DNA of 38,555 bases, taken from the NCBI GenBank assembly GCA_021793275.1, contig JAJYTC010000024.1, positions 1 through 38,555 on the forward strand, in the 5' to 3' direction. Positions 18,723-33,842 of this stretch are shown in pieces (within the stretch, counting starts at the first letter, position 1; each line of letters begins with the position of its first letter). The notes below the pieces were generated by a model, which searched no databases, was not told the origin of the DNA, and saw only the letters and a program-made list of their open reading frames with translations. This stretch comes from Deltaproteobacteria bacterium. Its GTDB lineage: Bacteria > Desulfobacterota > Syntrophobacteria > Syntrophobacterales > Syntrophobacteraceae. The translations under genes and the position numbers were made by a program.

Positions 18723-19038
18723 TTTCGGTTTCGAATGGAAACACTATTACGCGCGCTTGCATCGAATTCTTTGTTATTCCTTATTGTTGTCCGGAATAGG
18801 AAATGCGGAAAAAAAAGCGTGATCGAACGCCCGCGGGAGTGAAAATTTTCTGGCCGCAACATCACCTTCCATAACCAGCCCGGGCTAAAAATAGCTTTTG
18901 CCGGGCCGGGTCGCATAACGAGCAAACTAAAGCGATGGTTCATACGGAGGATCACCGGTACGGAAGGCAGACATCCATAGACTTCTCCAGGCACACCACA
19001 GCGGTGGGCAATGTGGTTGTAGCATGCGAGGACGGACC

Positions 19039-19113
19039 TTGGCGCCAGCGGCGCCTGCGTCCCGGTCGCGGGGCACGTCTCCGCGATCCGGCCCCCGTGG
19101 GGGTGCGCATAGA
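19039..19113. repeat. G+C-rich intergenic repeat, copy 1
   Basis: Begins TTGGCGCC, contains TCCCGGTCGCG and ends GTGCGCATAG. The same order of words recurs at 19668-19758. The tail continues as ACCTCAACTTACCGTGCCCC, resembling the 23345-23371 sequence. Confidence 0.6.
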
Positions 19114-19667
19114 CCTCAACTTACCGTGCCCCGTCAATCTTGATACAAGGGCAACCCGGATTCCCCGATCCGGACCGCTTCCGGCTGCCTTTTCCTTTCT
19201 GCCTTTTACCTCAAACTTTTGCCTTCGCGAAGCGTTTGCCTTTTCTCGTTGCCGCTTCTATTGCCGCTTCTCGTTTCCGTTTCACGTTGCCGCTTTGCGG
19301 CTAAAAAAACCTGCGTGGTATAAGCTTTGTGGATTCAAGCGGAATCGAGGGACAGGCGTATCGCCCGCCTCACTCGGTAACGCCGCTCTTTGAAAACCGC
19401 ATACAGAATAGCCCAGCTCTTCTCTTCACTCCACCATCTTCACTCTTCACTGCTCACTGTTCACCGCTCTTATCACTGCTGTTCCCTCGCTGTTGTCGCA
19501 TGCTGTTATTGGCTGTTATTTTCGACCCCCAAATCCTGAAATATCAATTAAATCAACATAATATGGAAAATCAAAAATAAAAAACCGCTGTATTAACAGA
19601 GATAACAGCATGGCCGGGCTTCCGGTAAATGTAACATAGAAAGACCAAGAGCATAGGGGGAAAGGTT

Positions 19668-27966: not shown

Positions 27967-28033
27967 GGAGGTCGGACGACTGAGGTCGGAAGTCGGAATA
28001 TGTTTCTCCGATACCCCGTCTCCGATCTCCGAG
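27967..28033. repeat. GGTCGGA-word inverted repeat upstream of infB
   Basis: GGAGGTCGGA (27967-27976) and related GAGGTCGGAAGTCGGA words are followed by the inverted partner TCCGATCTCC (28021-28030). It is the same word family as the repeat at 32661-32812. It lies in the ylxR-infB gap and would fold into an RNA hairpin. Confidence 0.6.
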
Positions 28034-28101
28034 GCCGGTCGCATCGGGCCGGCTGGTAAATGAATATAGAAGAAAGAAGCGTTTCAGAGGGGGAATCTTT
28101 A

Positions 28102-31327: not shown

Positions 31328-31690
31328 ATGACAATGGAATATAAACGCTCTGACAGGGTGGCCGACCTGCTTCACCGGGAAATAGCCGAACTTGTATTTC
31401 GGCGCTTGAAAGACCCTCGTGTTGCAAACATTACCATAAGCGGAGTTAAAGTTACGGGAGATCTCAGGCACGCCAGGGTTTTTTTTTGCATCATGGGGCG
31501 GGATGCCGACGAAGCCGCAAGAAAAAGCGCACTGTCGGGCCTCGATAAGGCCAAGGGTTTCATGCGGCAGGAGCTGGGCCGCAGGCTGAGCCTCAGGTAT
31601 GTTCCTCAGCTCGAGTTCGAATACGATACGTCTTTCGAATACGGAGATAAAATGGAAAGACTGCTGAAAGATCTGCACAAAGATGAGTGA
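31328..31690 (+). CDS. rbfA: ribosome-binding factor A
   Basis: A 120-residue KH-like factor for late 30S maturation. It begins Y-K-R-S-D-R-V-A-D-L-L-H-R-E-I-A-E-L, with the conserved I-T-I-S-G-V-K-V-T-G-D-L-R-H-A-R-V and the C-terminal R-Y-V-P-Q-L-E-F-E-Y-D. Normal length. Its 3' end overlaps nrnA by eight bases, indicating coupled translation. Confidence 0.95.
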   Translation: MTMEYKRSDRVADLLHREIAELVFRRLKDPRVANITISGVKVTGDLRHARVFFCIMGRDADEAARKSALSGLDKAKGFMRQELGRRLSLRYVPQLEFEYDTSFEYGDKMERLLKDLHKDE

Positions 31691-32687
31691 CCTGAAAACC
31701 CTGAAAATCAGGGAAGTGATCTCTGCCATCCGAAATTACGAGCGGTTTATGGTCCTCACTCACGTCCATCCGGACGGTGACGCGATGGGCGCCCTTGTTG
31801 CCATGCAACTCATTGTCCGCTGGCTCGGCAAAAGAGTCGATGCATTTACGCAGGACCCCTGTCCTCCCGAATACCGGTTCCTGCCCAATGTGCAGCAAAT
31901 CCGCAACAAGCCTCCGGAATCCATAGAATATGAAGCGGCGATTCTCGTTGACTGCGGCGATCTCGAAAGAGTGGGAGAAAAATTCCTCGATGCCGTGAAG
32001 GCAACGCCTTTTCTCATAAATATCGATCACCATCTCGTAAGCAATCCGTTTGGAAACGTAAACTGGGTGGAAACGACGGCAAGCAGCACATGCGAGATGC
32101 TCTTCGACCTTTGCATGAGCCTGTCGCTTGCCCCCGACAAGGCTTTGTCAACCGCGCTCTACACCGGGATTCTTACCGACACCGGTTCGTTCAGATACTC
32201 AAACACGAACGCGCGCGTTTTCGAAATAATCTCCGCGCTGGTCGCCTTCGGGGCTGACCCGGCTCGTATAGCGAGCAACGTATACGATTCCGCGACCCCG
32301 GAAAAACTCAGGCTGCTTGCCAGGGTGCTCGAAACCATGGAATTCCATGCATCATCGAGGATAGTGAGCGCCGAGCTGAGCAGATCGATGCTTTCAGACT
32401 CCCCGTCCACCCACATTGAAAGCGAGGGATTCATCAATCACCTGCGTTCGGTCAAATCGGCGGAAATGGCCATACTTTTCAAGGAAACCGGTGACGGATT
32501 GATACACGTCAGCATGAGGTCCAGGGGAGACATCAATGTGGCCAGGCTTGCGCAACGCCATGGAGGAGGCGGACACAAGCAGGCGGCGGCGTGCAGAATT
32601 CAAGGCGACCTCGGTACGGTCCGCTCCATGTTTATCGCAGAGGCGGTCAGCTATATTGACGGAGATCGGAGGTCGCAGGTCGTATGA
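31683..32687 (+). CDS. nrnA: DHH-family bifunctional oligoribonuclease/pAp phosphatase
   Basis: A 334-residue manganese-dependent phosphoesterase that degrades nanoRNA and pAp. Motifs in order: H-V-H-P-D-G-D-A-M-G-A (about residues 25-35), D-C-G-D, N-I-D-H-H (about 116), T-G-I-L-T-D-T-G-S-F, and the DHHA1 signature G-G-G-G-H-K-Q-A-A near the end. The last residues (G-D-R-R-S-Q-V-V) are encoded by one arm of an intergenic-type repeat. The TGA overlaps the truB ATG. rbfA-nrnA-truB order is common in many bacteria. Confidence 0.93.
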   Translation: MSDLKTLKIREVISAIRNYERFMVLTHVHPDGDAMGALVAMQLIVRWLGKRVDAFTQDPCPPEYRFLPNVQQIRNKPPESIEYEAAILVDCGDLERVGEKFLDAVKATPFLINIDHHLVSNPFGNVNWVETTASSTCEMLFDLCMSLSLAPDKALSTALYTGILTDTGSFRYSNTNARVFEIISALVAFGADPARIASNVYDSATPEKLRLLARVLETMEFHASSRIVSAELSRSMLSDSPSTHIESEGFINHLRSVKSAEMAILFKETGDGLIHVSMRSRGDINVARLAQRHGGGGHKQAAACRIQGDLGTVRSMFIAEAVSYIDGDRRSQVV

Positions 32688-32812
32688 GGGAAGACAGAAA
32701 ACAGATGACTGAGGAAGAAATACGGAACGGGCGAGAACCTTTCTGCGCCTCCTTTTCTTCCGAGCTCCGACCTCCGATGTCCGACAACCGACATCCGACT
32801 TCCGTAGGCGGC
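32661..32812. repeat. inverted repeat spanning the nrnA/truB junction
   Basis: A 22-base left arm at 32661-32682 (starts GGAGATCGGAGGTCG) and right arm at 32761-32782 are reverse complements with three mismatches. Further CCGACATCCGACTTCCG words run to about 32806. The core spacer is rich in AGACAGAAAACAG-type text. The same word family occurs upstream of infB. The unit overlaps both the end of nrnA and the start of truB. Confidence 0.75.
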
Positions 32813-33697
32813 GTTCTAATTTTGGACAAGCCCGAGGGAATAACCTCGGCAAAGGCTGCCGCCAAGGTTAAGAAATTGCTCAAGCCCCGCAAGATCGGCC
32901 ATACCGGCACTCTCGATCCGTTTGCCACGGGCGTGCTCGTTCTGTGCCTCGATGAGGCGACCCGCGCCTCCGATCAGATTGTCGGGCTCGATAAGGTCTA
33001 CAGGGCGACCATCTATTTCGGGGTTGAAACTGACACCCTGGATAAAACCGGAAAAGTTATCGGGCGAAGTGATCTCACTTTCTCCGAGAAGGATTTGCTC
33101 GAGGTGCTGGGCACTTTTTCCGGTGTTTGCGTGCAAACTGTTCCCAGGTTTTCGGCGGTAAGAGTCGATGGCCACAGGCTCTATGAACTCAGCCGCAGGG
33201 GCATCGAGGTCGAGCAGCCCGAACGTGAGATATGCATTCACTCGATAGCGCTGCAATCTTTCAAATGGCCTGAGGCCGTGGTCGAAGTCTGCTGTTCGAA
33301 GGGCACCTACATCCGGCAGCTCGCCTCCGACATCGGATCGAGGCTGGGAAGCCGAGCGCACCTGTCGGCCCTCAGGCGCACGAGGGTCGGACCTTTTACT
33401 TTGGATCGGGCGCTGCGGCTGGAGGAAGATTTTTCCGCCGCATTCGCCGAGGGATGGATTATACCTCTCAATGTGGCCCTTTCTCATCTGCCGGCTGCCT
33501 CGATGATCGATGGCCGGTCTCTCGGCCTGCTTAGAAACGGGCAGCTCGACCCTGAATGGGAAACAAAACAGAAAGGGATTTATAACACCTCTACCAACGC
33601 TGTGCGGATCGTAACCGGCACGGATCGGCTCGCGGCTTTGTGGTGGCCGAATTCGTCACCGGGCGCAGCTCGCCGCCTGCGTGTGTTCCCTTTCTGA
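32684..33697 (+). CDS. truB: tRNA pseudouridine-55 synthase with repeat-derived N-terminus
   Basis: Makes pseudouridine 55 in the T-loop of tRNAs. The normal TruB body starts at G-G-V-L-I-L-D-K-P-E-G-I-T-S (about residue 44 of the frame) and contains G-H-T-G-T-L-D-P-F-A-T-G with the catalytic Asp, and G-T-Y-I-R-Q-L-A near the middle. The 3' third holds a short PUA-like end. The first 43 codons come from a repeat sequence and have no TruB similarity. The ATG at 32684 overlaps the nrnA TGA, and GGAGGTCG in the repeat can serve as ribosome site. An ATG at 32777 is the alternative start, with no good site. Total 337 residues if 32684 is right. Confidence 0.92.
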   Translation: MREDRKQMTEEEIRNGREPFCASFSSELRPPMSDNRHPTSVGGVLILDKPEGITSAKAAAKVKKLLKPRKIGHTGTLDPFATGVLVLCLDEATRASDQIVGLDKVYRATIYFGVETDTLDKTGKVIGRSDLTFSEKDLLEVLGTFSGVCVQTVPRFSAVRVDGHRLYELSRRGIEVEQPEREICIHSIALQSFKWPEAVVEVCCSKGTYIRQLASDIGSRLGSRAHLSALRRTRVGPFTLDRALRLEEDFSAAFAEGWIIPLNVALSHLPAASMIDGRSLGLLRNGQLDPEWETKQKGIYNTSTNAVRIVTGTDRLAALWWPNSSPGAARRLRVFPF

Positions 33698-33716
33698 GAC
33701 GCATGCTTTACGAAGG

Positions 33717-33773
33717 CAAAAGTAAAAAGGCAAATAATAGAACTATTTCTGAACTTTTTCCTTTTTACTTTTG
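33717..33773. repeat. 14-bp A/T-rich inverted repeat upstream of rpsO
   Basis: CAAAAGTAAAAAGG (33717-33730) has an exact reverse complement at 33760-33773. Related GACTTTTTACTTC text follows. It lies in the truB-rpsO gap. It may end truB transcription partly, because the right arm is T-rich, and resembles the other word-type repeats in structure. Confidence 0.7.
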
Positions 33774-33842
33774 ACTTTTTACTTCTCGCTCCTCAAAGGA
33801 GCGAGCTGAAGAACTGGTGAAACATCAAGGAGGAATACAGCC

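Follow-up and report, generated by a model that had tools for sequence, protein, structure and literature searches.

When a repeat lies across the border between two genes, does it create new protein sequence and a new link between their translation, or does it only fill a space that was already there? The question is raised by the nrnA/truB junction in the 38,555 nt stretch of DNA analysed here (the window; contig JAJYTC010000024.1, assembly GCA_021793275.1), which comes from a genome of 4.65 Mb in 278 contigs, designated G000 in the comparisons below. In it, nrnA (DHH/DHHA1; 31,683–32,687, forward strand) and truB (32,684–33,697, forward strand) share an ATGA overlap. The product of truB was assigned with TIGR00431 (228 bits vs. 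a cut-off of 151.45), and residue 43 of the query corresponds to chain residue 4 of the solved TruB 1ze1, whose core is near the N-terminus, with three residues ahead of it. A search of the whole window against Rfam, at the gathering threshold, gave a tRNA as the sole match and no known RNA element at the junction; likewise, no paper on the junction word family or on a repeat at nrnA/truB appeared among the matches listed from the open-licence literature.

The junction (32,657–32,803) is made of degenerate 7-base units in a single phase, with around ten units at the left, four in the middle and seven, inverted, at the right. This phase runs from 32,657 up to the TruB core, and the array is therefore longer than the inverted repeat first noticed; its identity at lag 7 is 0.52, a value reached by none of 1,000 shuffles. 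According to the phase and periodicity tests, the left array (32,657–32,726, forward strand) comprises the units TGACGGA, GATCGGA, GGTCGCA, GGTCGTA, TGAGGGA, AGACAGA, AAACAGA, TGACTGA, GGAAGAA and ATACGGA, of which just three match NNNCGGA exactly. The right array (32,755–32,803, forward strand; phase test) comprises TTCTTCC, GAGCTCC, GACCTCC, GATGTCC, GACAACC, GACATCC and GACTTCC, conforming to the type GACNTCC, and the four middle units (32,727–32,754) are unlike either word; a narrower word scan delimits the left array to 32,657–32,684 and the right one to 32,759–32,800. Repeat finding and a shuffle test placed the arms of the inverted repeat, of 32 nt, at 32,656–32,687 (forward strand) and 32,756–32,787 (reverse strand), with 81% complementarity and 68 nt between them. 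The arms pair at 26 of 32 positions, vs. a maximum of 22 in dinucleotide shuffles (0 of 300 reach 26), and this repeat is the top of the 96 blocks in the window. A preliminary description of this DNA had proposed that the inverted repeat supplies the C-terminus of NrnA, the ATGA and some 40 codons of truB, and that the TruB core starts only after it. Both points are borne out: the array contains nrnA codons 328–334 (DRRSQVV; 32,664–32,684), the nrnA stop TGA (32,685–32,687), the overlap and truB codons 1–41 (32,684–32,806), and residue 42 is the first of both the conserved core and the TIGR00431 match.

We found truB in 58 of 59 genomes, and the comparison of junctions included 30 loci, all of them covered by the shuffle test for period 7, 26 by the test for inverted arms and 23 by the test of the 7-base phase; the three named relatives are Syntrophobacteraceae or Deltaproteobacteria MAGs. 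Period 7 was significant in five junctions, those from G000, G004, G006 and G009 (0 of 1,000 shuffles each) and from G007 (2 of 1,000), and in another 24 the value was matched by at least 142 of 1,000 shuffles. The junction from G025 (L022), belonging to another genus of the family, was borderline (13 of 1,000) and was classed as negative given that 30 tests were done. An origin of the array by chance or as an artefact of composition could be argued from the exact 10-mer GGAGGTCGGA, which is not enriched genome-wide, but is refuted by the shuffle tests and by the independent recovery of arrays in five genomes, and we consider it practically impossible.

A tree of nine genomes grouped the five carriers and the array-free G010 in a clade with a bootstrap value of 100. 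G010 is nested among the carriers, with supports of 62–89 for the inner nodes, and this position demands either one loss or several gains; the simplest account of the array distribution is one gain, in the ancestor of the six-species clade, and one loss, in G010. The word is not constant among carriers, because the same junction uses GTCGAA and TTCGAC in G006 and GTCGGA in G000. Convincing inverted arms were present only in these two genomes; the arrays from G004, G007 and G009 are periodic but without convincing inverted arms (in G004, 12 of 300 shuffles reach the score). Each of G000 and G006 shows complementarity of 15 of 16 between its own arms, with cross values of 13. The left arm from G000, however, shows a complementarity of 14 with the right arms from G007 and G009, so that a concerted change of both arms is at most suggested.

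On the nrnA side, the deduced product ends in FING, YIN, YMG or YIG in four of the five array-free congeners compared, and runs on in the fifth (G003); NrnA from the window ends in YIDG followed by the DRRSQVV supplied by the array. Separately, the G009 locus (L008, around positions 1,332 and 1,503 on the truB strand) has 9 nt inserted at the end of nrnA, within a stretch complementary to the first part of the truB core (15 of 18; 0 of 60 shuffles); a templated insertion might look so.

Three in-frame ATGs precede the TruB core, at 32,684, 32,705 and 32,777, and all of them are within the array. From the sequence, initiation at 32,684 appears the likeliest, because a Shine-Dalgarno-like GGAGG (32,668–32,672, forward strand) occurs 11 nt upstream, at the meeting of two units, and because the alignment reads an ATG as homologous in G004, G007 and G009, followed there by a similar charged stretch. 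In G004, only two in-frame starts precede the core, an ATG 26 codons ahead of it, in the array, and a TTG at a distance of 217 codons; use of the ATG is thus very likely. If truB started instead at 32,705 or 32,777, much of the extension would be an untranslated leader. Both are in-frame ATGs, and solved TruB chains carry little sequence ahead of the core, as seen in 1ze1, but the GGAGG and the ATGs read as homologous favour 32,684, and G004 has no later plausible start; we thus regard this later initiation as unlikely, and both codons would still be inside the array. The array therefore encodes the end of NrnA and, very likely, also the beginning of TruB. Additionally, a predicted mRNA hairpin pairs the GGAGG (fold z −2.03; 3 of 200 shuffles fold equally well), so the array hairpin could possibly affect the translation of truB.

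The preliminary description had gone further, proposing that the repeat became a protein extension and originated a new translational coupling. Indeed, the ATGA, the GGAGG and every ATG before the core are within the array, and a ribosome translating nrnA would open the predicted hairpin, as would suit an innovation retained for its usefulness. Nevertheless, array-free junctions have comparable features: an in-frame ATG overlaps the nrnA stop, or precedes it by less than 30 nt, in 15 of 25 of them, and in 23 of 25 an in-frame ATG stands 20 or more codons ahead of the core (the exceptions being G002 and G033), with the near-identical pair L018 and L019 included among the 25. Moreover, the nrnA/truB overlap exists in only three of the five array-bearing junctions and in neither G006 nor G007. 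These starts at the stop codon and at extension length, occurring without any array, indicate that a variable linker was already there and that the repeat filled it anew. The part of the proposal that stands is that repeat DNA is now coding; neither the extension nor the coupling was newly created, and their origin from the repeat as a useful novelty seems to us very improbable. The comparison of truB starts among relatives, put forward as a check, was divided in the same way, since extensions are present by length and position and their sequence is not conserved. In ten species pairs, the extension showed pN of 0.32–0.49 and pS of 0.36–0.71, over 21–40 poorly aligning codons, and the TruB core pN of 0.06–0.13 and pS of 0.38–0.61. 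These values hint at a weak amino-acid constraint on the extension at most, which also speaks against a useful novelty, although its pN/pS of 0.57–0.93 makes some constraint possible.

We consider it likely that a heptad array was gained in a pre-existing, fast-changing linker between nrnA and truB and was passively captured there as coding sequence. The junction would hold one member of an inverted heptad array family, acquired by the ancestor of the six-species clade, and the array would most likely have grown in a permissive spot by slippage or by hairpin-templated copying before its capture. NGTCGGA and GTCGAAA, the consensus words, lack stops in all six frames, so that arrays can be read through at any length; drifted units, such as TGAGGGA, do carry stops, and one drifted unit terminates nrnA. 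In this process, the array would have displaced the stop codon of nrnA by a few codons, provided anew the overlapping ATGA and the GGAGG, and turned into truB codons 1–41, outside the conserved fold, leaving an extension that is presumably unstructured and without a selected function. As many array-free relatives possess a similar overlap and an extra stretch, the array looks like a tolerated filler and not like an invention. The junction is a clear example of repetitive DNA turned into the stop of one gene, the probable start of another and a protein tail within a housekeeping operon, in a setting where array-bearing and array-free sisters can be compared; start-codon annotation and differences in protein length in such genomes can stem from repeat turnover and not from function.

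Arrays of this period are not confined to the junction. A sample of 437,763 bases, around a tenth of the genome (the window and 20 stretches taken, not at random, from seven large contigs), contained 16 strict arrays of period 7, vs. 0–2 for each of periods 4–6 and 8–12, and one Markov replicate contained none. Their words include AGTGAAC, GTCGAAA and GTAAAAA, together with their reverses; none of the 16 carries the exact word of the nrnA/truB array, which falls outside the strict list because of its degeneracy and is present at a laxer cut. A looser scan of the same sample for NGTCGRA retrieved 12 arrays, vs. 0–11 for 20 permuted words, a control that may contain rotations of NGTCGRA and would then be strict; from these figures, the word is weakly supported in the sample. 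Over all the stretches, many of them picked by word searches, the scan retrieved 38 arrays at 28 loci. The genome-wide word search advised in the preliminary description gave a mixed outcome: the tandem TCCGACNTCCGAC is enriched in the genome (9 vs. 0; 51 vs. 36 when one mismatch is allowed), and the exact GGAGGTCGGA is not, as it occurs at 18 sites vs. 20 for the reversed control and was discarded as a family marker. In the other ten genomes of the genus, pooled, TCCGACNTCCGAC is not enriched (7 vs. 13), and TCGACNTTCGAC is enriched in G000 (15 vs. 1) and G006 (18 vs. 4), with little or no enrichment elsewhere in the genus.

The same word family had also been described as non-coding sequence upstream of infB, and related words are indeed found between ylxR and infB (27,967–28,034, forward strand), within a stretch that exceeds its G006 counterpart by 64 nt. 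The repeat finder identified there a direct repeat and no inverted pair, and in the word scan two arms were recognised, with no perfect unit in the right-hand one. In five further relatives compared there by eye, a related degenerate copy exists in G007 and none in G002, G004, G009 and G010.

Both arms were called in ten of the 28 loci, and the GTCGRA arm comes first in all ten. By analogy, this repeated and paired layout on opposite strands could correspond to a site where a chromosome-organising protein or a regulator binds, its coding use being incidental, and binding of IHF/HU or of a regulator was proposed for paired sites from Geobacter metallireducens (PMC2700814). The words vary among loci and even among species at one locus (GTCGGA in G000 and GTCGAA in G006), however, and the array is missing from 25 of the 30 junctions, making a binding site doubtful.

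For a captured heptad array, the nearest precedents are the paired heptanucleotide sites from G. metallireducens and the TAACTGA repeats from Beggiatoaceae. The former include paired tandem sites on opposite strands, at variable spacing and in several copies (class 3), and the element GGACCGG, with 49 copies within and between genes (PMC2700814). The junction array resembles them in its tandem 7-base units and in its two arms on opposite strands, but their words are MTYCTGA and GGACCGG, whereas here we found NGTCGRA and others, in one array spanning a whole gene junction. Neither published word is among the units of the nrnA/truB locus, as judged by inspection of this locus, and we therefore did not file the array under the G. 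metallireducens family. TAACTGA arrays are found at gene borders, with 13 sets overlapping the stop of the upstream gene, and their coding cases are mainly protein ends (PMC4679880). The junction array is similarly a heptanucleotide array at a gene border overlapping a stop codon; however, TAACTGA is a single fixed word in direct orientation with forward-strand stops in all frames, whereas our array is inverted and its consensus words are stop-free in all frames. Inspection of the units revealed no direct TAACTGA tandem at the nrnA/truB locus. Rickettsial elements are palindromic and belong to another lineage than that of the junction array. They are likened to it by description, not by sequence, in being repeats within protein-coding genes (PMC2635572), and enterobacterial RU elements in being intergenic repeats read as part of annotated proteins, although the latter are fixed MITE-like units of 103–168 bp, in contrast to heptad arrays (PMC2759123). 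Heptanucleotide arrays at or in genes are thus already described, and the NGTCGRA-type array spanning the nrnA/truB junction is a new variant.

Arrays also overlap coding sequences elsewhere, namely a family-4 glycosyltransferase (L046) at its C-terminal tail, a DegT/DnrJ aminotransferase (L127) at its N-terminus and a methyltransferase ORF (L047, 1,237–2,259), where the array (1,501–1,528) is read as a linker ahead of the methyltransferase domain. The alignments included 11 of 12 loci for the methyltransferase, seven of 12 for the aminotransferase and eight of 12 for the glycosyltransferase, with second and distant matches omitted. Compared with the window species, the methyltransferase linker is 10–12 residues shorter in eight of ten orthologues, five shorter in G006 and equal in G007; therefore, its length varies also without this array. 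GGTCGGA, AGTCGGA and GTCGAAA lack stop codons in all six frames, and AGTGAAC and AGTAAAA have stops on one strand. Stop-free words should be captured as coding more readily than those of the AGTGAAC/AGTAAAA type, and our coding examples come from a scan for the stop-free class, which is no test of capture bias. It would be a bolder claim that this lineage repeatedly draws protein termini and linkers from heptad arrays open in six frames, with both arms switching word together through hairpin-templated copying (at this junction, to GTCGGA in G000 and to GTCGAA in G006), and with DNA mechanics, not protein selection, rewriting start, stop and terminus together; we rate it as quite improbable.

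REP/BIME sequences with a RAYT transposase were considered as a candidate origin of the arrays; their hallmark is a palindrome of 20–40 bp with a GTAG or CGTC tag (PMC3733652). The RAYT-type Y1 transposase domain PF01797 has four matches in the genome, one of them with seven stops, and period-7 runs occur near one of the four loci (L121). Other repeats were seen in the window: a heptad array with the word TTCACTG (19,434–19,469) is located downstream of ORF 18,935–19,393, and the second-best inverted repeat among the tested blocks (2,352–2,428; 25 of 32) contains repeated CTGTCAAAA words. Finally, the truB-rpsO gap contains an inverted heptad array, TTTTTAC/GTAAAAA (33,713–33,786), with a word different from that of the nrnA/truB array; among nine genomes compared by eye, it occurs in the window only and is absent in the eight relatives viewed.
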